Positions 8,352 to 63,235 of a stretch of DNA of 64,000 nucleotides are shown piece by piece. The notes beneath the pieces are model-generated. The model did no database searches, was not told the origin of the DNA, and saw only the letters and a program-made list of their open reading frames with translations. Made by a program: the position numbers and the translations under genes. Within the stretch, counting starts at the first letter, position 1. Each line of letters begins with the position of its first letter. Source of the DNA: Alphaproteobacteria bacterium (GTDB lineage Bacteria > Pseudomonadota > Alphaproteobacteria > Caulobacterales > Parvularculaceae); NCBI GenBank assembly GCA_030433215.1, contig JAUIMC010000001.1, positions 62,001-126,000 on the forward strand, written 5' to 3'.

Positions 8352-10931
8352 ATGTCCCGCTACAACCCGAAAGAAGCCGAGCCGAAATGGCAGGAGCGCT
8401 GGACCGAGGCCAAAGCCTTTGAAACCAGCGCCGACAAGGCGAAGCCGAAATATTACGTCCTCGAGATGTTCCCCTATCCCTCGGGTCGCATCCATATCGG
8501 CCATGTGCGCAATTACGCCATGGGCGACGTCATCGCGCGCTACAAAAAGGCCCTCGGGTTCAACGTTCTTCATCCCATGGGTTGGGACGCCTTCGGCATG
8601 CCGGCGGAAAACGCCGCGATGCAGACCGGCTCGCATCCGGCGAAATGGACTTACGGCAATATCGACATCATGCGCGGGCAGCTCAAACAGATGGGTCTTT
8701 CCATCGACTGGTCCCGCGAATTCGCCACCTGCGACCCGGAATATTACGAACACCAGCAGCGCATGTTTCTGGAGTTCTGGAAGGCGGGCCTCGCCTACCG
8801 CAAGGAAAGCCTCGTCAACTGGGACCCGGTGGACCAGACCGTGCTCGCCAATGAGCAGGTGATCGACGGCAAGGGCTGGCGCTCGGGCGCGCCCGTTGAG
8901 CGGCGCAAGCTCTCCCAGTGGTTCCTGAAGATCACCGACTATGCGGAAGATCTCTTGGCGGCGCTTGATGACGGGCGTTTGTCCGGCTGGCCGGACAATG
9001 TCCGCCTGATGCAGAAGAACTGGATCGGCAAGTCAAAAGGCTTGCAGATGAAGTTCCGTTTTGCAGACGGAACGAATGCGCCCGCGGGCTATGAGGAGGG
9101 GATCGAGGTCTTCACCACGCGCCCCGACACCCTCTACGGCGCGAGCTTCATCGCGATCTCGCCGGACCACCCGCTGGCCGTCGAGCTGGCGCAAACGGAC
9201 AAGGGCCTCAAAGACTTCATCGCCGAATGCCAGAGCGCGGGCACCTCCGAAGAAGCCATCGAGAAAGCCGAAAAGCGCGGCTACAAGACGGCGCTCGAAA
9301 CCGGCCATCCGTTCGACGGCCGGACCCTGCCGGTCTATGTCGCGAATTTCGTGTTGATGGGCTACGGCACGGGCGCGATCTTCGGCTGTCCGGCCCATGA
9401 CCAGCGCGACTATGATTTCGCGACCAAATACGATCTCGCCATCCCGCCCGTGGTGCTGCCCGAGGGTGCAGACGCCGCAAGCTACGCACTCGACGGCGAG
9501 CCCTATATCGGGCCGGGAACGATCTTCAATTCGGATTTCCTGAACGGGCTTTCCGTCGAAGAGGCGATCGCGACGGCGATCAAGAAGATCGAGGAGATGG
9601 GGTTAGGGAAGGGCGTCACGCAGTTCCGCCTCAGAGACTGGGGCGTTTCGCGCCAGCGCTATTGGGGCTGTCCGATCCCGGCGATCCATTGCGAAAAATG
9701 CGGCGTCGTCGCAGTCCCCGAAAAGGACCTGCCGGTGAAGCTGCCCGAGGAGGCCGACTTCTCAGAGCCCGGCAACCCCCTCGACCGGCACCCGACCTGG
9801 AAGCATGCGGACTGCCCGCAATGCGGCGGCAAGGGAAGGCGCGAGACCGACACCTTCGACACCTTTGTCGACTCGTCCTGGTATTTCGCGCGCTTCGCCT
9901 CGCAGCCCGAAGACAAACCCGTCGATAAAGACACGGCCGATTACTGGCTGCCTGTGGACCAATATATCGGCGGCATCGAACACGCTATTTTGCACCTTCT
10001 TTATGCGCGCTTTTTCACCCGCGCCATGAAGAAAGTCGGGCATTTGTCCGTAGACGAACCGTTCGCCAATCTCTTTACGCAAGGCATGGTCGTGCACGCG
10101 ACTTATCGCGATGAAGACACGAAAGAATGGCTGTTGCCGGAAGACGTGATTGTCGAGAAGGGCGGGGCGAAACGCGCCGACAACGGCAAGCCGGTAAAGA
10201 CCGGCCCCATCGAAAAGATGTCGAAGTCGAAAAAGAACGTGGTCTCGCCGGAGAAGATCGCGGAGACTTACGGCGCCGATGCGGCGCGCTGGTTCATGCT
10301 CTCCGACTCGCCGCCGGAACGCGACGTCGAATGGACCGACTCGGGCGTTGAGGGCGCGTGGAAACTGATCAACCGCATCTGGGACGCAGTGCAGGCGGCG
10401 CCCGGCGCCTTGAAAACCGCAGACCTGTCGAAACCGGAAGCGAGCGACGCCGACAAGCCCTTGCGCCAGGCGACCCACGCCGCCATCGCCGGCGTCACCG
10501 ACGACATTGACCATTTCCGCTTCAACAAGGCGATCGCGCGCATCTATGAATTCCTGAACGCGCTCAAGAAAGAAAGCGCCGCCTCATCATGGGCCCGCGC
10601 CGAAGCCCTGTCGGCGCTCGCCCGCCTGATCGCGCCCTTCACGCCGCATCTTGCGGAAGAGGCGTGGGAAGCCCTCGGCGGAGACGGGATGGTCTGCGAC
10701 GCGCCCTGGCCGAAGGCCGATCCGGCGCTGCTCGCCAAGGACGAAGTCGTCCTTGGCCTTCAGGTCAACGGCAAGCGCCGCGGCGAGCTCGCCATTGCGG
10801 CGGACGCCGACAAGGAAACTGTGGAACAAGCGGCCTTGTCCGACGAGGCCGTAAAGCGGCATATTGAGGGCAAGACCGTCCGCAAGGTCGTCGTGGTGCC
10901 CGGACGGATCGTCAATATCGTCGCCAATTAA
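8352..10931 (+). CDS. leuS: Leucyl-tRNA synthetase
   Basis: An 859-residue class I synthetase that charges tRNA-Leu. The HIGH motif is at residues 48-51 ([13 protein letters not shown]) and the KMSKS motif at 622-626 ([11 protein letters not shown]). A CP1 editing domain lies between them ([12 protein letters not shown] near residue 255), and the C-terminal anticodon-binding and LeuS-specific domains follow. Length and architecture are normal for bacterial LeuS. It is followed by lptE and holA with short gaps, the usual alphaproteobacterial order. Confidence 0.98.
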
Positions 10932-45792: not shown

Positions 45793-46474
45793 TCAGGGGG
45801 CTCTGCGCGCGAGAGGCGCGGCGTTGCCGGCCGCCGGGCCTGCGCCGGTCTTAACCGGCCCGGCCTTTTCGCGCCGGCGGAAGCTCACGGCCTCGGCGAT
45901 GTGGCGGCGCCTGACGCCGTCCCCGCCGTCGAGATCGGCGAGGGTGCGCGCGACCCGCAAGATGCGCATATAGGCGCGGGCGGAAAGTCCGAGGCTTTCG
46001 GCGGCGCGGGACAGGAGCGAGGCGCCTTCCGCGTCCGGTTCGGCGACGGCGGCAAGGTCGGCGTCCGCGAGGGCCGCGTTGGTGACGCCGTCCTTGCCGC
46101 CGGGTCCCCCCGACGGTCTGGCCCGTTCATATTGCGCCTCACGCGCCGCGGCGACGCGCGAAGCGACCTCCGCGGTCGTTTCCCCCAGTCCGGGCGCGGC
46201 GAGGTCGGCGGGCGTGACGGCGGGGAGTTCGATAGCGAGGTCCATGCGGTCGATCAGCGGGCCGGAAATCCGCGACTGATAGATCTCCTCGCAATTGGGG
46301 CCCTTGCCGCAGGCGCGGCCCGAGGCCCGGCCATAACCGCAACGGCAGGGATTCATGGCGGCCACGAGCTGGAACCGGGCCGGATAGCGCACATGGAAAT
46401 TCGCCCGGGCGATGAGGACGTCGCCGGTTTCGAGCGGCTGGCGCAGGCAGTCCAGCACCGGCGCGGAAAATTCC
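45793..46474 (-). pseudogene. comM: comM (yifB) 3' fragment, C-terminal half
   Basis: The C-terminal half of the ComM/YifB AAA+ helicase: FSAPVLDCLRQPLETGDVLIAR (continuing the Walker-B strand of the other half), MNPCRCGYG (zinc-binding cysteines), RISGPLIDRMDLAIELP (sensor/arginine region) and the C-terminal winged domain ending VSFRRREKAG. It lacks a start; codons upstream of 46474 are inserted DNA. The other half lies at 51776-52699. ComM normally drives branch migration during natural transformation. The fragment is unlikely to be functional alone. Confidence 0.92.
46465..46474. repeat. Target-site direct repeat, left copy
   Basis: GGAAAATTCC immediately outside the left terminal inverted repeat; the same 10 bases lie at 51776-51785. 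Because the repeat begins GG and ends CC, an 8-bp duplication (GAAAATTC) with a 25-bp inverted repeat reads equally well. Confidence 0.85.
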
Positions 46475-46498
46475 GGCCTTATGTAGCAAGCGCACCAA
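46475..46498 (+). repeat. Left terminal inverted repeat (24 bp)
   Basis: Begins GGCCTTATGTAGCAAG and ends CGCACCAA; an exact reverse complement of 51752-51775. Confidence 0.93.
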
Positions 46499-46521
46499 GC
46501 CCACGGCGGAGTGATTAAGCC

Positions 46522-46848
46522 GTGGGAAATCAAGGCCTTACAGAATACGACCCAATCCCGCCCGGCGAGCTTCAGCTTGACGCTGGAATCCGCCGCTACG
46601 TCCTCATTTTGCGCTCGGCTGGTGTCGAGACCTTCGAGTCCTGCGAAGGCGGTGAAGGTCATTCGATGCCGGAGCCCACCATCCGGTTTTACGGAAACCC
46701 ATGGGAAGGGTTTAGGGCCTACGCCGCGGCCATGACCCATGGGCTGCCGGTGTTCTCCCTTCGCCGCGTCTATGACCTAAACGACGGCGAGCTGCATGGG
46801 CCTTGGTGGGAACTCACGTTCCGCACCAAGGATGTGACGCCATGTTAG
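46522..46848 (+). CDS. Passenger gene: 108-aa protein of unknown function
   Basis: A GTG-started 108-residue protein close to the left end of the element. Conserved-looking motifs are TFESCEGGEGHSMPEP (Cys, His), IRFYGNPWEGFRAYAAAM and GPWWELTFR. Proteins with this FESCxGGxGH pattern occur as unassigned genes on mobile DNA of Alphaproteobacteria, to my recollection. No enzyme family can be named. A GGCGGAG-like ribosome site lies about 12 bp upstream; its 3' end overlaps the convergent 51-aa gene by 4 bp. Confidence 0.65.
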   Translation: MGNQGLTEYDPIPPGELQLDAGIRRYVLILRSAGVETFESCEGGEGHSMPEPTIRFYGNPWEGFRAYAAAMTHGLPVFSLRRVYDLNDGELHGPWWELTFRTKDVTPC

Positions 46849-47000
46849 CTGAGGCGCTTGCAATGGTCGCACTTAGGGTGACCGCCTGTACCCGCCTTGC
46901 GGTTATGGGTCTCGATATTGTTGCCTTCGGTGCACTTCGTGTTGTCGTGATAAACGCGGGTGCCCGGCAGTTTCGAGTGAAACGGCGCAACTTTAGCCAT
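46845..47000 (-). CDS. Passenger gene: 51-aa CxxC small protein
   Basis: A short gene reading MAKVAPFHSKLPGTRVYHDN, then KCTEGNNIETHNR and finally HPKCDHCKRLS. Three cysteines and several histidines (C23, H31, C44, H46, C47) suggest a small zinc-binding knuckle. A GGAGAA ribosome site sits 5-6 bp before its ATG. The ordered composition and good ribosome site make it a credible gene. Function unknown; a host-DNA or RNA-binding role would be guesswork. Confidence 0.7.
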   Translation of the reverse strand: MAKVAPFHSKLPGTRVYHDNTKCTEGNNIETHNRKAGTGGHPKCDHCKRLS

Positions 47001-47042
47001 TGTCTTCTCCATTCAATTGAGTTGAACGCAAACAATCGAAGC

Positions 47043-47060
47043 GGACTCGAAGTAGAGTCC
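47043..47060. repeat. Inverted repeat in leader of the 51-aa gene
   Basis: GGACTC (47043-47048) and GAGTCC (47055-47060) around a 6-base loop, about 43 bp upstream of the leftward start codon; a candidate operator or leader hairpin. Confidence 0.4.
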
Positions 47061-47163
47061 AAGTCGGAGTCAAGAAAAAGTTTTGCCCTAATTTTCTGGC
47101 GTTTGCGCCATAAAGCCCCTGAAGTTAGCGAGGCCCTAGGTGCTTGATGCGCTTGCCGCCGCG

Positions 47164-48096
47164 CTAATAGCGATGCAAATCTTCCTTGCGGGCGAGGGTG
47201 TTGCCCCAAGGGTTCCGGTACATCTCTTTGAAATCGTGAGCTTCAATGCTCGTTTGTGTGTTGAAAGCGAAAAGGTAGGCGTTTCGCAACCGCGAGACAC
47301 CAGTCCACGAAACTGCACCCCAGACCTTCAGCCACTTTCGGAAGGGAAGCGCTTTTGCAATTGCTGCTTGGTCCCTGTCCGAATGGTACACGGTAGCCCA
47401 CTCAGAATCGCCGGGGGCCAAGGCCTTGAGGGTAAAGCTTGGCCAAACAAAATCATTAACCCCAATCAGCCCATGCGAGCCTTCTTCAATTTTGCAGATG
47501 GCGCCGTAGCGAACGTTATAAACAGGGGTATCTCCAATATTTTCGACTTTGACTTCAAAATGTATGCTCTCGTCCCCGACGTCATATTTCACACGAGCCT
47601 CTTGGGCGACAAGCATCCCGCCAAATTGAGTTTTGGCGACGTCAAGGGCGATTTCATTGGAATCGAATGCAGCGCGGGTGGTTTTTTTCGCCTCCCGCAG
47701 CGTTTCTTCTGTGTGCTTAGCGGCCGTCTCGGTTTCGCTGAGGGTCTTACGCAAAACCCGCAAACCAAGCCAGGTAAAGCCAACAATCGCGAGCGTGGCG
47801 CCCGCCATTGTCCATTGTGCGATAAGATCGAGAACATCGGTCCAATTCGGTTTATTGGCGTTCTCGCCTATATCTTCGCCTTTATCCCCATCGGCGTCAG
47901 CGTAGCTTGGAGAGGCTGGAACATCGCTGGCAGAGACTATCGGCGCGGAATGCGCATCCTTTTTTTGGGCCTGTTCTTGAGCATATCCGGAGGCCTTACC
48001 GCTCCAATACTCATTGCCGTATTGTAGCGCCGCACTGAGCGCGATCAGCCCAATTACTCCAAATGCAGGGTGTTTGATCCAATCGCGCTTAGACAT
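47164..48096 (-). CDS. Passenger gene: two-helix membrane protein, unknown function
   Basis: A 310-residue protein. A first hydrophobic helix lies at about 11-26 (AFGVIGLIALSAALQY). A polar, acidic linker (30-85) follows, then a second helix at about 92-115 (LIAQWTMAGATLAIVGFTWLGLRV), a heptad-like stretch (117-140) and a C-terminal globular domain with NIGDTPVYNVRYGAI and FTLKALAPGDSEWATV, beta-rich like an immunoglobulin-type or DUF-type fold. Its start overlaps the DUF6471 gene by 43 bp, so the pair is translationally linked. No family assigned. Confidence 0.75.
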   Translation of the reverse strand: MSKRDWIKHPAFGVIGLIALSAALQYGNEYWSGKASGYAQEQAQKKDAHSAPIVSASDVPASPSYADADGDKGEDIGENANKPNWTDVLDLIAQWTMAGATLAIVGFTWLGLRVLRKTLSETETAAKHTEETLREAKKTTRAAFDSNEIALDVAKTQFGGMLVAQEARVKYDVGDESIHFEVKVENIGDTPVYNVRYGAICKIEEGSHGLIGVNDFVWPSFTLKALAPGDSEWATVYHSDRDQAAIAKALPFRKWLKVWGAVSWTGVSRLRNAYLFAFNTQTSIEAHDFKEMYRNPWGNTLARKEDLHRY

Positions 48097-48275
48097 TGCA
48101 GAAGAAACACCGCCGAGAATTTGCCCCTAGAGAGCTTATTCTTGATGTTTGCTTCCTTTTCTTCAACGCCTATTTCCGCCAGCTTTTGAACAAGCCCGGC
48201 ATAGGTGACGCCTTTTCGCTTTAGCTCAGCTTTCAGGAGGTTGCTGACCCTCTTTTCCCAGTCTGTTTCGCTCAT
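48054..48275 (-). CDS. Passenger gene: DUF6471-like small HTH-type protein
   Basis: A 73-residue protein: WEKRVSNLLKAELKRKGVTY, AGLVQKLAEIGVEEKEANIK, then NKLSRGKFSAVFLLQCL. The pattern (helix, GVTYAGLVQKL, N-x-K-L-S-R-G-K-F) matches the DUF6471 family, which looks like a minimal helix-turn-helix. It heads the leftward operon and faces the transposase across a palindrome-rich gap, so it could repress both promoters; that is inference. Confidence 0.78.
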   Translation of the reverse strand: MSETDWEKRVSNLLKAELKRKGVTYAGLVQKLAEIGVEEKEANIKNKLSRGKFSAVFLLQCLSAIGSNTLHLE

Positions 48276-48283
48276 TTAGGTAC

Positions 48284-48380
48284 CGTTTATGTGACTTTTT
48301 TCACCATAAACGACACCTAGGGTATTGTAAACAGTACTCTATGGTACTATATACGATGCGTAAGACATCGGAAACAGTAC
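48284..48380. promoter_or_regulatory. Divergent control region of DUF6471 gene and transposase
   Basis: Contains CGTTTATGTGA ... TCACCATAAACG (48284-48312, inverted with one bulge), AGTAC-TCTATG-GTACT (48333-48348), and a direct repeat AAACAGTAC at 48329-48337 and 48372-48380, the second touching the transposase start codon. An AT-rich TACTATATACGAT (48345-48357) could be its -10 region. The symmetry suggests dimeric repressor sites. Confidence 0.55.
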
Positions 48381-48381
48381 C

Positions 48382-49335
48382 ATGACACAGCATTTTCTCC
48401 TCTCAGCAGCCTCCAGAACCTTGAAACTCAAGGACATTTACAAGGCTGGCGAGGAAGCCGCTTACCGCAAATTCTGCGAGCTGCGCTGGCCGGAAACGGA
48501 TGGCGAGGCGATCTGCCCGCGTTGCGGCTGCTGCGAGACCTATGACATTTCCACCCGCCGCAAATTCAAGTGCAAGGCGTGTTCGCACCAGTTTTCGGTC
48601 ACGTCAGGGACCATCTTTGCGAGCCGCAAAATGGACTTCACGGATCTGCTGGCCGCGATCTGCATCATTGCGAACGCCGCGAAAGGCGTCTCTGCGATCC
48701 AGCTTAGCCGCGACGTGGGCTGCCAGTACAAAACGGCTTTCGTTCTGGCTCACAAAATCCGCGAAGCCCTCGCCGATGAAACTGAAAACGCCAAGCTCTC
48801 CGGCACGGTTGAAATCGACGGCGCCTATTTCGGCGGCCACGTTCGCCCGGCCAATGAAGAAAAGAACCGCGTTGACCGCCGTTTGAAGCGTCACCAGACA
48901 GGCAAGCGCCGCGTCGTCGTCGCGCTGCGCCAGCGCTCGGGCCGTACGCTTTCTTTCGTTCGCAAGTCAGAAGCCGAAGGCGTCGAGATTGCCCGCCAGC
49001 GCGTCGCTACGGGGTCTGAAATCCATGCTGACGAGGCTTCGCATTGGGATACGCTGGACGCCTTCTTCCCGGTTGGCCGCATCAATCACTCGGAAGCCTA
49101 CAGCGCGAACGGTATCTGCACGAACCAAGTTGAGAGCTATTTCTCGCGCCTTCGCCGCATGGTTGGCGGACAGCATCACCACGTTTCTGGCAAGTACCTG
49201 CACCAGTACGCGGCCCATGCCGCTTGGCTGGAAGATCACCGCCGGGAGAGCAACGGCGCTCTGGCCTCGCGGATAGTCGCTGGCGCAATGGCCGCGCCGG
49301 TTAGCCGTGAATGGAAGGGTTACTGGCAGCGTTAG
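48382..49335 (+). CDS. IS1595-family (ISXO2-like) transposase
   Basis: A 317-residue transposase. An N-terminal zinc ribbon has cysteines at 45, 48, 64 and 67 (CPRCGCC ... CKAC), followed by TSGTIFASRKMDF. The ISXO2-like catalytic domain has D146 (VEIDGAYFGG), D217 (IHADEASHW) and the NQVESYFSRLRR segment (N248, E251), then HHHVSGKYLHQYAAHAAW. It is intact and would move the whole 5.3-kb element using the 24-bp ends. Its 3' end overlaps the convergent 343-aa gene by 4 bp. Confidence 0.95.
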   Translation: MTQHFLLSAASRTLKLKDIYKAGEEAAYRKFCELRWPETDGEAICPRCGCCETYDISTRRKFKCKACSHQFSVTSGTIFASRKMDFTDLLAAICIIANAAKGVSAIQLSRDVGCQYKTAFVLAHKIREALADETENAKLSGTVEIDGAYFGGHVRPANEEKNRVDRRLKRHQTGKRRVVVALRQRSGRTLSFVRKSEAEGVEIARQRVATGSEIHADEASHWDTLDAFFPVGRINHSEAYSANGICTNQVESYFSRLRRMVGGQHHHVSGKYLHQYAAHAAWLEDHRRESNGALASRIVAGAMAAPVSREWKGYWQR

Positions 49336-50363
49336 GAAGAGTCTGCCTTTTGAACGCGCCCTTCTGCATAAAACTCATGAAGTTCAAGAGCACGGCGACA
49401 GATTGATAAAACAAGTTTGGAAAACAAAATAGGGTTATTGCTACATGCGGCCCTGATTTTTCCAACAGCCTCCAACCCAATTTCGGTGGCCAGGTCAAGT
49501 GACTTGTCCATGGCTAATTGTTGTATTCGTTCTGAAGAAAATCTTGCGTTTGGCTCAGCAGATAACAGCTTGTCCTTTTTCAGGAGTACGTAAAGTTCTC
49601 TATACAGAGTTTTGACCTTATCGCGATTTGCATTAAACAAATCGATTACATCTGATATGTCGGATAGCGCCTTATTGTTTCCGCGTAAGGCAATCTCGCC
49701 GGGAGAAGCGTATTTAATCCTCGCGACTTCCAACCTCTCCACTTCAAGATTATCGTTTCTGGCTTCAAGGTCCCCATAAAAGCCAACGTAGCTTCCACCA
49801 CCTCTCCAAAGCCGTGTTTGAATTGCTTGGCGAATGAAGGCTTGCTCACTTCGTACATTACCTTCGTCAAGCCGGTCTAAAACAGCATAAAGGGCGTGTA
49901 GTTGGGATACGCGATTGTGAAATGATGAAAAGTCATCGGATGTCCATTTTCCATCGATCTTAAAAACCTTGATGGCATTTGAGGCGCCGCCGCGCCCGTA
50001 ATCGCTTGTATGATCGCGAGAAAAAAAACCGATACTTGGCCAGTAACTTTGATTTTCGGCTTCTTTTTCAGAAAGGACTTCTAGACTAATTGTTTCCTCT
50101 TCATCCGTACCAAGGTCAAACATATAATAAGAATTGCTGAGTGCATTTTTATAAACATAATGAAGGTCCGCCGTACCCTCGAAATATTTTTCTGATGTCT
50201 TCTTGCGAACTTCGCAGCAAAAAAACGCAGAGTCGAAACCCTCCCTCTCTACAGCAACACCAAACATCGGAAGGTTGCGGCTAGACTTGAGAAGCAACAA
50301 CTGTGGTCCGTCATATTCAACGAGAGCTTCCACAACTTTTGCGGTTTTCGGGCGTATCGTCAT
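49332..50363 (-). CDS. Passenger gene: 343-aa protein, unknown function
   Basis: A 343-residue soluble protein in low-G+C DNA. The N-terminal 120 residues (VEALVEYDGPQLLLLKSS, FCCEVRKKTSEKYFEGTADL, HYVYKN) have the look of a small beta domain; a DUF6575-like start is possible but not confirmed. The rest is helical, with KTLYRELYVLLKKDKLLS and LELHEFYAEGR. Codon use is clearly unlike host genes (many AAA, ATA, TTA). It overlaps its upstream partner by 4 bp, forming a two-gene operon. Confidence 0.72.
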   Translation of the reverse strand: MTIRPKTAKVVEALVEYDGPQLLLLKSSRNLPMFGVAVEREGFDSAFFCCEVRKKTSEKYFEGTADLHYVYKNALSNSYYMFDLGTDEEETISLEVLSEKEAENQSYWPSIGFFSRDHTSDYGRGGASNAIKVFKIDGKWTSDDFSSFHNRVSQLHALYAVLDRLDEGNVRSEQAFIRQAIQTRLWRGGGSYVGFYGDLEARNDNLEVERLEVARIKYASPGEIALRGNNKALSDISDVIDLFNANRDKVKTLYRELYVLLKKDKLLSAEPNARFSSERIQQLAMDKSLDLATEIGLEAVGKIRAACSNNPILFSKLVLSICRRALELHEFYAEGRVQKADSS

Positions 50364-50846
50364 AAGGCTTCAACCTTCACGACGGCGGCGGTGGGATTGA
50401 ATGTTTTATATAACCACACGCTAACGTGCTTATCGTTTGACGATTGATCGTGGGGTTTTACTTTCCCCGCGTTTTCAGTGACCTTGATATGAGCGATGAA
50501 GGTCTTATCACGAAGATTTGGTAGTTTCGTCATAGCCTCTAGCCTTGATCGCGGGGTGTCTTCCAAAAAAAATGAACAGCCGAGCCAGCGGCATTCATCA
50601 ACCCTTTTGGGTTTCGTCTTTCCCTCACATGCGCATGACAAAAAATGAGCATCTGAAGGATTCTCATTCGAGATAAGCCGGAGCAGAGTGGCGTCTTGAA
50701 GCGGTGAGGCGTCTGACGGTGGACAGCCATCCGGAAGAGGCCCGCCCCTGTACTTGGTCTCTACTTTCGCTTTCGTATCGGTTTTTTTCGAGTTCAGACC
50801 CCGCCCCCAAATTTATATTTCTGTAATGGGGCAAAATCTTTGGCAT
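50360..50846 (-). pseudogene. Passenger gene partner of the 343-aa gene, apparently frameshifted
   Basis: Two overlapping frames join at a run of seven A (plus strand T7, 50782-50788). The upstream frame starts at ATG 50846 (MPKILPHYRNINLGAGSELE). The downstream frame continues plausibly as TDTKAKVETKYRGGPLPDG, then CPSDASPLQDATLLRLIS and CACEGKTKPKRVDECRWLG to the stop at 50360. The downstream frame lacks an ATG/GTG over its first half. One A too many (or two too few) would explain it, by mutation, sequencing error or slippage. Rejoined, the protein would be about 160 residues with a Cys-rich middle. A shorter version from TTG 50641 (93 aa) is the fallback. Confidence 0.5.
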
Positions 50847-50910
50847 ATGCTGCTGCGTCTATTCAAGCTTCAGGACGAATTTAAACCGATCTGCTCACTT
50901 TATCGGGGTT

Positions 50911-51150
50911 TCATGGGTTGTGCGAATATTCCTGCAAGCCGTTGTAAACCTTACACCAAATGTAGTTTCGAACACCTGAATCTCTCTTTGAAGTTGCCAC
51001 GAGATGTTCGCGGCAGCGGGAGAGAGCCTCTCCCCGGTCGCCATACTTCTCCATCAGATAGGCCGCCCAGCGATCCGCCATGGCGTATATCCGGCGACGG
51101 CGTTTGACTCGCGCGCGTGGGTCCAGGTGGCGGAGAAAATAGGTAAGCAT
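50911..51150 (-). CDS. Passenger gene: small protein, unknown function
   Basis: A 79-residue, basic protein; the likely core starts at a second ATG (51081): MADRWAAYLMEKYGDRGEAL, then SRCREHLVATSKRDSGVR. It looks helical and well composed, and resembles small unassigned genes on alphaproteobacterial mobile DNA. No good ribosome site is seen for either start, so the call is cautious. Confidence 0.5.
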   Translation of the reverse strand: MLTYFLRHLDPRARVKRRRRIYAMADRWAAYLMEKYGDRGEALSRCREHLVATSKRDSGVRNYIWCKVYNGLQEYSHNP

Positions 51151-51257
51151 CAGCGCTATTATGGCGCAAACGCCTGAAAATGTGTTAGGCTTTCGGTAGA
51201 CGCGGGTGCCAGCTCCGTTTGCCTCGGGTTCCGCCCTCGGCCTTGGACTTAGGACAG

Positions 51258-51281
51258 AAACGGACCCTTCGGGGTCCGTTT
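51258..51281. terminator. Intrinsic terminator with TTCG tetraloop
   Basis: AAACGGACCC (51258-51267), TTCG loop, GGGTCCGTTT (51272-51281): a perfect 10-bp stem with a T-rich end on both strands. It lies 4 bp beyond the stop of the leftward 140-aa gene and would end its transcript. Confidence 0.82.
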
Positions 51282-51284
51282 TGC

Positions 51285-51707
51285 TTATCCGGCCAGATTC
51301 CAGCCCTTATAGAGCCCTTCCTGCGGAACCGGGCGGATGGTCCCCTGATGCTTCAAGCTATTCAGGCAGGCCCCCACGCGCTTCCTGAGAAGCACGGCGG
51401 TCTCGTCGCTGGCCTCCAAGCCCCGCGCCTTCATATAGGCTTCGGCTATGTCCAGCGACGTAAGCGGCCCCTTGGCCTCCCTGAGGCACCTCAGGACGTG
51501 GCGGATCATCTCGCCCCGCCCGGCTCTGTGGGCCACAGAACGGCTTGGCAGCCGCCTAGGCGCGTCCTCAGTGAATAGCCGGATTGCGGCGTCCAAATGG
51601 TCTAGGTCTATCCTGATATTGCGGGCGGCCTTCTCTGCCGCCTTTAACTCCGCCTGCAACTGGCGGCGCTTCTCCATCAACCCGGCTACTGTGTTCGGCC
51701 TCTCCAT
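51285..51707 (-). CDS. Passenger gene: coiled-coil plus winged-helix-like protein
   Basis: A 140-residue protein next to the right end of the element, starting MERPNTVAGLMEKRRQLQAE. The first ~45 residues form a heptad-rich helix (ELKAAEKAARNIRIDLDHLD). The rest (GEMIRHVLRCLREAKGPLTS, LDIAEAYMKARGL, VLLRKRVGACLNSLKHQGTI) has the spacing of a winged helix-turn-helix. Similar short genes accompany transposons and could regulate them; this is inference. A GTG 21 bp upstream is an alternative start. It has a clear downstream terminator. Confidence 0.65.
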   Translation of the reverse strand: MERPNTVAGLMEKRRQLQAELKAAEKAARNIRIDLDHLDAAIRLFTEDAPRRLPSRSVAHRAGRGEMIRHVLRCLREAKGPLTSLDIAEAYMKARGLEASDETAVLLRKRVGACLNSLKHQGTIRPVPQEGLYKGWNLAG

Positions 51708-51751
51708 GGGGGAAAGGTTAGGATTCACAGGGGCTTAAAACCAGCTTAGAG

Positions 51752-51775
51752 TTGGTGCGCTTGCTACATAAGGCC
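51752..51775 (-). repeat. Right terminal inverted repeat (24 bp)
   Basis: Reads TTGGTGCGCTTGCTACATAA then GGCC on the plus strand; an exact complement of the left end. Confidence 0.93.
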
Positions 51776-51785
51776 GGAAAATTCC
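51776..51785. repeat. Target-site direct repeat, right copy
   Basis: GGAAAATTCC, identical to 46465-46474, immediately outside the right inverted repeat. Both copies encode the same comM codons (Glu-Phe-Ser) in the same phase. Confidence 0.85.
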
Positions 51786-52699
51786 GGCAGCTCGTCGAGA
51801 AAGAGGACGCCGTGATGGGCAAGCGACGCTTCGCCGGGCTTGGCGCGAACCCCGCCGCCAATCATCGCCGCCATGGACGCCGAATGGTGCGGCGCCCGGA
51901 AGGGCCGCGCCCGCGACAGCCGCCCGCCTTCGAGGAGGCCCGCGAGCGACTGGACCATGGAGATCTCGAGCATCTCCCTGGGCGTCAGCGGCGGCAGGAG
52001 CCCGGGCAGGCGCGCGGCGAGCATGGATTTTCCCGCCCCCGGGGGGCCGACCATCAGGAGATTGTGCGCGCCCGCCGCCGCGACCTCGAGGGCGCGTTTG
52101 GCGGTCTCCTGGCCTTTGACGTCGGATAGGTCCGGTATGGCCGCCGCGGTTTCGAGCGCGCCGGGCGCCGGCGCCGACAAAACCTGCGTTCCCTTGAGAT
52201 GGTTGACGAGCTGGATCAGTGATTTCGGCGCCAAAATCGCCGCGTCGCCGCCGGCCCATGCGGCCTCCGCGCCGCTCGCGGCGGGACAGATGAGACCGAG
52301 CCCCAGCGCGTTGGCGGCGACCGCGGCAGGCAGGGCCCCGGCGCAAGGGGCGATCGAGCCGTCCAGGCCGAGCTCGCCCATCACGGCGAACCCGGCGGCC
52401 GCATCGGCCGGCGCGGCGCCCATTTCGATGAGCAGGCCGAGGGCGATGGCGAGATCGAAATGACTGCCCTCCTTGGGCAGGTCAGCCGGGGCGAGATTGA
52501 CGGTGATGCGTTTGACGGGAAGGCCCAGACCCACGGCGGAGAGCGCCGCGCGCACCCTTTCGCGCGCTTCGGAGACCGCCTTGTCGGGAAGGCCCACAAT
52601 GGTGATGGCGTTATTGCCGCCATTAACCAGCTGCACCTGGACCGTCACCGGCCGCGCATCGACCCCGTGAAAGGCGAAAGTGGTGATCTGCGCGACCAT
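51776..52699 (-). pseudogene. comM: comM (yifB) 5' fragment, N-terminal half
   Basis: The N-terminal 308 codons of the ComM/YifB AAA+ protein: [18 protein letters not shown], the Lon-like substrate domain ([38 protein letters not shown]), the Walker [35 protein letters not shown] and the Walker B region LFLDELPEF. The reading frame then runs into the transposon and stops at 51764 after three foreign residues. The C-terminal half lies 5.3 kb away. The original start codon and promoter side are intact, so a truncated product could be made. Confidence 0.93.
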
Positions 52700-52928
52700 G
52701 CTTTCTCTCCCGCAAGCCTCTCCAGCAAGCGGGGCGAACATAACAGGAACAAAAACAGATGAAAAGCCCGGCGCGCCCTCTGTTTTCCCCAGCCGGGCGG
52801 CGGCTTTTCTTGCCAAAGTTTTAAGAAAAGCTTCTCGGGGGCAATCCCGATTCGCCTTAAAAGAGCAGGCTTGGGAAAGCCTTCAGCGCTTTGGCGAAAA
52901 GGCTCGTCACGCAGCAGAAACATTAACC

Positions 52929-61965: not shown

Positions 61966-63235
61966 CTTCCGGCTCGTTTTTCACTTCCGCGTCCACCTCT
62001 TCAAACCGATCCGCCCGCGACAGCGTCGGGAACAGTTTCAGCCAGGACGCCGCGCACAGGAGCGAGACGACTCCGCCTAAAATCACGGCATTGATCGGCC
62101 CCAAAAACCGCGCCGCGACGCCGCTTTCGAATTCGCCGAGCTGGTTCGAGGCGGAGATGAAGATGAACGAAACGGAGGAGACGCGCCCGCGCATATTGTC
62201 GGGTGTAGCGTGCTGGATGATCGACTGGCGGATAAACATCGACACCATGTCCGCCGCCCCGCCGATGGCCAGCATCACCATCGACAGCCAGAAGATTTTC
62301 GAAAAGCCGAAGCCGAGCATCGAAAGTCCGTAAATCACGATGGAGCCGAGCAGCCAGGGACCGACCTTGCGTCCCAGCGGATTGGCGGCGAGGGCGAAGG
62401 CGACAACCGCCGCGCCCACCGCCGGCGCGGCGCGAAGAAGACCCAGCCCCTCCGAGCCCACCATCAGGATATCGCGTGCAAAGACCGGCAGCAGCGCCGT
62501 GACGCTGCCGAAAAAGACAACCACGAGATCAAGCGTGATCGAGCCTAGGACGAGCTTGTTGTTGAAGACATATTTGACGCCGTCGATAATCATCGACCAG
62601 CCGCGCACATTGTGAACCGGTTCGTGGGGCGGCGTCTCGGCCGTTGCGAACATGACGACCGCAATGGCGGTCAACATCGCGCCGGCGCCGTAGACCACAT
62701 GCGCGCCGCCGATGAACAGGAAACCGCCGATGGCGGGGCCCAGCATCGCCGCGCCTTGCATCCCCAGCGAGTTCCACGCAATCGCGAGGGGCAATTCGTC
62801 CCGCGGCACCAGGCGCGGATAAAGCGAGCTCGACGCTGAGGGCGTGAAGGCGCTGACCGCGCCATTGCCGAAGGCCGCGCAGAAGATCGCCGGGATCGCG
62901 ATATGGGCGGGCATGAAGCTTGCCGCGACCAGTGAGGAAATGACGAAAAACCGGACGATGTTCGAATAGACGAGGATCTTTTTGCGGTCGAAGCGGTCCG
63001 CCGCCTGTCCGCCGGGCAGGGACAGAAGCAGCACCGGCACGAACTGCGTCAGGCCCACAAGGCCAAGCATGAAGGCCGACTCCTCAATGGAGCGGGTGAG
63101 CCGCGACAGGTCGTAAATCTGCCAGCCAATGGCGATCGCCACCATCTGCCGCTCGGCGCTGATCAGCTGCCGCGCGATCCAGTAATGGCGATAGCCCTGA
63201 TGGCGAAAAATCGAAAAGGACGGAACGGAACGCAT
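61949..63235 (-). CDS. MFS transporter (EntS/DHA3-like exporter)
   Basis: A 428-residue protein with about 12 membrane helices. The opening [26 protein letters not shown] and the loop [21 protein letters not shown] (cytoplasmic G-x3-D-R-x-D-R-K) are those of the DHA3/EntS-type exporters, as is [20 protein letters not shown]. The C-terminal half has [25 protein letters not shown]. Likely a proton-driven exporter with unknown substrate. The start was set at MRSVPSF; a methionine 5 codons upstream is possible. Confidence 0.85.

Follow-up and report, generated by a model that had tools for sequence, protein, structure and literature searches.

Insertion sequences (IS) are generally regarded as only loosely selective in where they insert. 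In Tn7, a separate protein, TnsD, chooses a conserved coding target, and the transposon inserts in a fixed orientation at its attachment site; the AbaR islands are Tn7-like. Members of the ISNha5 group are about 3.45-7.9 kb in size and have ends that begin with CGG. According to the accessible parts of the published accounts, the IS1595 family is characterized by a DDE and zinc-ribbon transposase and an 8-bp target duplication (PMC8101967), IS1595 elements with passenger genes go by the name transporter IS (PMC3129680; PMC11891212), and the passengers of ISNha5 include a transcription regulator (PMC11891212). Here we analyze an IS1595-family element that interrupts the competence gene comM in a 64,000-bp stretch of DNA (hereinafter the window; positions 62,001 to 126,000 of contig JAUIMC010000001.1, assembly GCA_030433215.1) from an alphaproteobacterium of the family Parvularculaceae. 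Comparison of 126 delimited elements reveals a small accessory protein, denoted c1, that is encoded in all of them and follows the precise codon of insertion in different host families, independent of the transposase. It appears likely that the element is an ISNha5-like cargo transposon in which c1 is a dedicated, swappable target-selection protein.

Compared by description only, the element resembles the ISNha5 group in its DDE and zinc-ribbon transposase, 8-bp duplication and passenger genes, and differs from it, as far as the descriptions consulted go, in its invariant third core gene, its pair of cargo slots and its reuse of exact targets. Among the literature titles listed for IS1595, ISNha5, transporter IS and DUF6471, none was on a target-selecting third gene. 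With the Tn7-like transposons, the element would share a separate protein that chooses a conserved coding target; in contrast to them, it possesses a single DDE transposase of another family and a candidate selector that is a winged-helix protein of about 150 amino acids without a Pfam family, and its insertions split the target gene and occur in mixed orientation, both ways at five gene sites. We infer that c1 is analogous to TnsD/TniQ, with no detected relation to these proteins. The original prediction, made from the window alone, had presented the element as a previously unrecognised IS1595-type transposon with passenger genes; judging from the accessible parts of the reports on cargo-carrying IS1595 elements (PMC11891212; PMC3129680), the kind itself is not new. 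The element is a member of the IS1595 family, and what is new is its anatomy, i.e. the three-gene core, along with the proposed targeting by an accessory protein.

Related elements and their three-gene core

A transposase search of the contig collection yielded 239 loci, the best 80 of which were kept. At E 1e-40, transposase matches were present in 17 of the 385 genomes sampled from the class and in 35 of the 200 sampled from the order (own genome included), with one match in 30 and two in 5 of the latter; in the samples of other orders, which partly overlap, 35/390, 2/15, 8/43, 24/297 and 11/196 genomes had matches (E 1e-60 or 1e-70). An element was considered delimited when its two ends were present and no fewer than 7 of the 8 duplicated bases matched. 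The first set comprised 87 such elements (79 after the removal of 8 duplicates), and the second, held-out set comprised 47 elements from 80 regions, with 16 duplicates and 17 regions not delimited; four of the held-out loci (L229, L230, L232 and L250) had been met in the earlier search and were then not delimited. Altogether, 126 elements were selected for a duplication of at least 7/8, and 125 of these have 8/8; the smallest of the 126 measures 2346 bp and the largest 7610 bp, with a median of 3604 bp, and three exceed the element in the window.

Core genes were identified by comparing 65 elements (one of them a duplicate), followed by profile searches across all 126. By this sequence comparison, the core consists of the transposase, a DUF6471 protein and c1, and everything else is cargo. 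The transposase of the window (317 aa; 48382-49335, plus strand) belongs to the IS1595 family, with matches to DDE_Tnp_IS1595 (1.4e-37) and Zn_ribbon_IS1595 (4.6e-12), above the curated cut-off, and, as originally predicted, is intact: the catalytic residues D146, D217 and E251 are present and are conserved in 126/126 transposases. The DUF6471 gene (48054-48275, minus strand; Pfam 3e-31) adjoins the transposase gene in divergent orientation and was detected in 119 of the 126 elements (79/79 in the first set, 40/47 in the second). The model of its product has a four-helix Xre-like helix-turn-helix fold, nearest to restriction-modification controller proteins and HipB; given that the best E-value is 0.09, this likeness counts at the fold level only. 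The DUF6471 protein is probably an Xre-type repressor of the transposase gene.

The third core gene, c1, encodes in the window a 147-aa protein with a coiled coil and a winged helix, the putative target-site selector (51285-51728, minus strand). With a profile built from first-set members, c1 proteins of about 150 aa were found in 126/126 elements at E <=7.7e-8; the open reading frame (ORF) lies at most 200 bp from the right end in 117/126 and on the minus strand in 120/126. Thus, the DUF6471 gene, which the original prediction had counted among the passengers, and the 147-aa right-end gene are core genes, not passengers. The c1 model (pLDDT 87.5, pTM 0.61) consists of a helix at residues 11-52 and a winged helix at residues 73-145. 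In a Foldseek search, the nearest solved folds were DNA-binding winged helices (Fur and related proteins; best E 0.01); no solved fold was retrieved at E 0.001, the first row being 2mh2, a Hop2 domain. No informative match was obtained when PDB sequences were searched with the c1 profile (best E 0.65), and a Pfam scan of 57 c1 members produced weak winged-helix matches in some of them and none for the c1 of the window. TniQ was matched neither by these 57 c1 candidates, among the 25 Pfam families listed out of 28, nor by the nine ORFs of the element scanned with Pfam.

Recurrent exact landing sites

In the window, comM/yifB is broken into a 3' part (45793-46473, minus strand) and a 5' part (51785-52816, minus strand; this ORF contains the true start), and the flanks with one copy of the duplication align with an uninterrupted comM of the same genus over 537 residues (92.9%). 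The segment 51764-52816 matches TIGR00368 (2.3e-93), under the whole-protein cut-off, as expected for a part of a gene. A comM match was found in 35 of 41 genomes of the family (own included); the insertion site is uninterrupted in 17 of 19 family loci, and an element is present there in the other two (L181 and L193). The insertion into comM had been correctly predicted, and uninterrupted alleles in relatives, which the prediction had named as a check, are indeed present; the site is in addition a recurrent exact target, which was invisible from the window alone. Vertical inheritance of one comM insertion was considered and rejected on account of the differing orientations, the differing host families and the 17/19 open family loci.

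Mapping the insertions through their flanks, we found 16 elements, including the one in the window, at comM residues 341-343 (Walker B) and seven at residues 277-279, 192 bp from the 341 site. Thus, 23 of the 126 insertions are in comM, compared to about 0.05 expected at random (by arithmetic, for a 1.5-kb gene in a 4-Mb genome). One gene encoding an MshEN-plus-GT2 glycosyltransferase is hit at three positions by 8, 8 and 4 elements (20 altogether), with L264 inserted elsewhere in the same gene, and 22 elements (e.g. L044, L077 and L207) are located at a Rhodobacterales motif of the form CTTCTT..GCC.AAATATCCCCGCCGGAGG, which is intergenic by eye. Four smaller site classes include 3, 3, 2 and 2 elements. 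In L081 and L220, the element has inserted into the final codons of a gene resembling glutathione S-transferase; in L081, a comM match is located nearby.

AbaR islands have been described, in the accessible part of the report, as disrupting comM in Acinetobacter and lowering transformation (PMC7508600). By comparison with this insertion, the loss of comM in the window probably lowers efficient natural transformation.

Target choice in relation to c1 and the transposase

The comparisons of the core proteins suggest that the target follows c1, not the transposase. Among 31 first-set elements at six recurrent sites, the identity of c1 was 0.483 in same-site pairs versus 0.282 in different-site pairs, whereas the corresponding values were 0.647 versus 0.616 for the transposase and 0.484 versus 0.508 for DUF6471. 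The nearest neighbour by c1 shared the site for 30/31 elements, compared to 20/31 by transposase and 10/31 by DUF6471; when only neighbours with a transposase identity below 0.65 were considered, these numbers became 23/31, 5/31 and 4/31, the permutation mean being about 6.3. In the held-out set, 15 of the 47 elements had landed at predefined sites, occupying five of the six, and the nearest first-set neighbour by c1 yielded the correct site for 14 of the 15 (the miss being L269), compared to 7/15 by transposase and 3/14 by DUF6471.

With the Rhodobacterales-motif pairs excluded, the area under the curve (AUC) for predicting a shared site from pair similarity was 0.955 for c1, 0.487 for the transposase, 0.384 for DUF6471 and 0.484 for the left end; with all pairs included, the values were 0.953, 0.721, 0.614 and 0.683, respectively. 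On quick trees of 75 elements in 10 target classes (minimum of 9 changes), the number of target changes was 10 for c1, 27 for the transposase and 35 for DUF6471 (73 elements), against shuffled means of 47.2, 47.3 and 45.8. Excluding the Rhodobacterales class left 53 elements in 9 classes (minimum of 8 changes), for which c1 required 8 changes, the transposase 23 and DUF6471 30 (51 elements), with shuffled means of 33.6, 33.8 and 31.9. When the Rhodobacterales c1 proteins were kept in the tree, the class new9, which has two members, was scattered among them.

Host relatedness, or taxonomic confounding, as the cause of the link between c1 and the target is not supported by a host-family control, from which Rhodobacterales-motif pairs and pairs with unmatchable family labels were left out. 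In this control, pairs from the same host family with different targets showed identities of 0.312 for c1 and 0.749 for the transposase (145 pairs), and pairs from different families with the same target 0.455 and 0.634, respectively (96 pairs). Natural swaps go in both directions: L077 differs in target from L091, L092 and L095 although their transposases are 94% identical, with c1 proteins only 41-43% identical, and the element of the window shares its target with L011 at 59% transposase and 68% c1 identity. Altogether, c1 is more similar than the transposase in 22 same-site pairs and in 0 different-site pairs.

Proposed mechanism and alternative scenarios

Under the scenario that we favor, the DDE transposase acts at the 25-bp ends and leaves an 8-bp duplication, as the sequence shows, and the DUF6471 protein, encoded divergently from the transposase gene, probably serves as an Xre-type repressor. 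The winged helix of c1 would recognize a specific conserved host sequence (in the window, the codons LPE|FS of comM Walker B), and the coiled coil of c1 would recruit the transposase to this target. The c1 gene would be exchanged between elements, which would send related transposases to separate sites and bring distant ones to a shared site. The cargo occupies two slots and consists partly of toxin-antitoxin or anti-phage genes; in the window, it is a PD-T4-10-like pair acquired at the cost of comM. More generally, it is likely that many alphaproteobacterial cargo transposons of the IS1595 type are addressed, that is, c1, with no detected relation to TnsD/TniQ, would guide the transposase either to an intergenic motif or to one codon of a conserved gene, and an element that exchanged its c1 gene would be re-addressed; the sites in question are comM Walker B, comM E-M-L, three sites in the MshEN-glycosyltransferase gene and the intergenic motif. 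If this is correct, these elements represent a simple system of targeted insertion in which the choice of target by a protein can be put to the test. They would also be a vehicle that brings toxin-antitoxin and anti-phage genes to predictable locations, with the competence gene comM repeatedly paying the price.

Several observations weigh against this scenario. The case for targeting by c1 is comparative and derives from sequences, the relatives were gathered by similarity to the transposase of the window rather than at random, and the Rhodobacterales class was set up after the first tests. As many as 51 of the 126 elements are at sites seen once only, and all five comM and glycosyltransferase sites contain insertions in either orientation (7 and 9 at comM341), unlike in Tn7. 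In the first set, the transposase predicts the site well too (the 20/31 above) if close relatives are allowed, and two c1 proteins are associated with targets other than those of their relatives: the comM277-like c1 of L007 (identity up to 0.60) and the LGGT-like c1 of L075 (0.77 to L084). In the held-out set, a labelled c1 neighbour at an identity of at least 0.40 was available for 20 of the 47 elements, with 14 correct assignments and six elements located elsewhere (L254, L250, L262, L249, L257 and L248), and the four labelled predictions below 0.40 were all wrong (L264, L230, L268 and L272); for the 32 held-out elements off the predefined sites, c1 gave a wrong label in 10 and the transposase in 13. 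Both halves of c1 co-vary with the target, and therefore the winged helix is not singled out. Finally, of the six elements with a plus-strand c1, the targets of L252 and L253 fit, whereas the prediction failed for L249 (identity of at least 0.40) and for L272 (identity below 0.40); the remaining two, L167 and L263, have no labelled target.

The alternative that fares best, which we nevertheless consider improbable, is that c1 is a passenger or a regulator and that co-located elements recombine and share right ends, such that the location sets the c1 type. The position of the c1 ORF close to the right end in 117/126 elements is what would be expected under this scenario. However, L252 and L253 encode c1 on the opposite strand and at a distance from the right end, and the target still fits c1; insertions at the same site are found in both orientations and in many host families; and the left end does not follow the target (AUC 0.484, Rhodobacterales pairs excluded). 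Sharing of right ends also leaves unexplained how different transposases reach the same codon. An alternative with very little probability is that the transposase prefers a loose, palindromic, AT-centred target, that comM and the glycosyltransferase gene match it by coincidence and tolerate insertion, and that the link to c1 is phylogenetic noise. The symmetrised target indeed has an A/T centre with G/C at its edges, but two genes contain between them five distinct DNA sites, every one of which is used repeatedly, and transposase similarity does not predict the sites (AUC 0.487; 23 changes versus 8). The notion that this is no more than a common transporter IS of the known kind, loaded with random passengers, for which the published IS1595 transporter IS speak (PMC11891212 and PMC3129680, in their accessible parts), was already disfavoured and is scarcely tenable given the three core genes and the recurrent targets.

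Ends and boundaries of the element

The element spans 46474-51776 (5303 bp), bounded by 25-bp terminal inverted repeats that are identical in 25/25 bases (46474-46498, plus strand, and 51752-51776, minus strand) and flanked by the 8-bp duplication GAAAATTC (46466-46473 and 51777-51784, no strand), with duplications present in relatives as well. The perfect 24-bp repeats of the original prediction are exact; the boundary was settled in favor of the reading that it had offered as an alternative, 25-bp ends with an 8-bp duplication, rather than a 10-bp direct repeat, because the loci of the relatives fit ends that start with CGG. Of 71 two-ended relative loci with ends read from CGG, 65 have 7-8 matching duplicated bases (64 of them 8/8), and in the remaining six (L024, L030, L036, L039, L041 and L071) the duplication matches in 1-6 bases only. 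With up to three mismatches allowed, the 24-mer end occurs in the window only at 46475-46498 and 51752-51775, and it had 0 matches in 100 shuffles.

Features of the IS1595 family are present, namely the DDE domain with catalytic D, D and E, the N-terminal zinc ribbon, the 8-bp duplication and the inverted repeats, along with a feature of the ISNha5 group, passenger genes inside one pair of ends. The element is accordingly an IS1595-family, ISNha5-like cargo transposon, the likeness to ISNha5 being by description only. As predicted, the passengers are lower in G+C: the cargo regions are at 0.44-0.54, compared to about 0.6 for the transposase gene and both element ends and about 0.60-0.73 outside. 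The expectation that the same ends surround the same cargo at other loci was borne out for the kind of ends; the whole cargo set was not found elsewhere among the relatives.

A second end type (CGGTATTATGGCGCAAACGCCA) is present inside the element in two copies facing inward, at 47091-47122 and 51150-51181 (no strand), which pair with each other and are taken as relics; this end type bounds divergent members, e.g. L160-L162. These inner copies suggest an older element or exchange within the present one. A nested or composite transposon was rejected, given that the inner inverted pair lacks a matching duplication (flanks compared by eye) and is the inward-facing end type of the divergent members; the single, non-composite transposition unit of the original prediction is thus upheld. 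A solo end-like stretch within the toxin gene (49438-49452) was taken for chance. On the left, a small ORF with a GTRVY motif (55 aa; 46845-47012, minus strand) has no family match, and a short direct-repeat remnant of the same ORF is located on the right, at 51197-51210. The genome of the window also encodes a second, distant IS1595 transposase (G000 contig C1:115594-116433, L004), with 34% identity.

Cargo genes

The cargo of these elements is located in two slots between the core genes, A and B; slot A often contains proteins that appear by eye to be membrane-bound, and slot B often contains toxin-antitoxin or defence-like genes. In the window, slot B encodes a 343-aa PD-T4-10_B-like toxin (49332-50363, minus strand) that matches the PADLOC profile PD-T4-10_B over residues 11-342 (2.9e-24). 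Upstream of it and overlapping it by 4 bp is a partner frame (50360-50803, minus strand; first listed start TTG at 50641) without a family match in the Pfam and PADLOC scans; in L173, a 34% homologue of the partner is found beside a 29% homologue of the toxin. The original prediction had noted the 343-aa protein and its partner without recognising the cargo set. In the accessible part of its description, PD-T4-10 is an overlapping two-gene toxin-antitoxin system, with B the toxin and A the antitoxin, that protects against T-even phages by abortive defence (PMC9519451). The pair in the window is alike in its overlapping two-gene organization and in the match of the second gene, and differs from the described system in that the antitoxin partner lacks a profile match and the carrier is an IS1595 element; here, the function is assigned by homology. 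The cargo of the window looks like a PD-T4-10-like toxin-antitoxin anti-phage pair, with the partner frame probably encoding a PD-T4-10_A-type antitoxin. There is no ATG, GTG or TTG near the conserved N-terminus of the antitoxin-like frame, such that an unusual start or decay is possible. The toxin type is rare, being present in 3 of 385 genomes of the class, including that of the window (E 1e-8). With no phage match and a single weak plasmid match (E 0.001), the possibility that the toxin gene derives from a phage or a plasmid was rejected.

Slot A of the window encodes a 310-aa protein of membrane and coiled-coil character, as judged by eye (47164-48096, minus strand), whose cluster (c3) is represented in 28 of the 65 compared elements (one a duplicate). 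The 108-aa ORF near the left end (46522-46848, plus strand), either cargo or spurious, has no family match. Across the elements, Pfam matches for 76 of the 79 slot A ORFs included Panacea (3), two transposase domains (1 each) and FlaC_arch (1), and PADLOC matches included PDC-S42 (2). For slot B, 84 of the 117 called ORFs (at least 70 aa, minus one transposase piece) were scanned: among the 25 Pfam families, Peptidase_M78 and SocA/Panacea (3 each), BRO-N (2) and ParE, Phd/YefM, GNAT and NYN (1 each) were found, and among the first 25 of 71 PADLOC families listed, RmrA (4), capP (3), BstA (3) and others. L029, a close relative at the comM341 site with a 79% identical transposase, carries ShosT and ShosA in the same slot as the toxin pair, and the window is without ShosTA. 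A 79-aa ORF of the window (50911-51150, minus strand) has a homologue in this ShosTA-carrying comM element (9228-9563).

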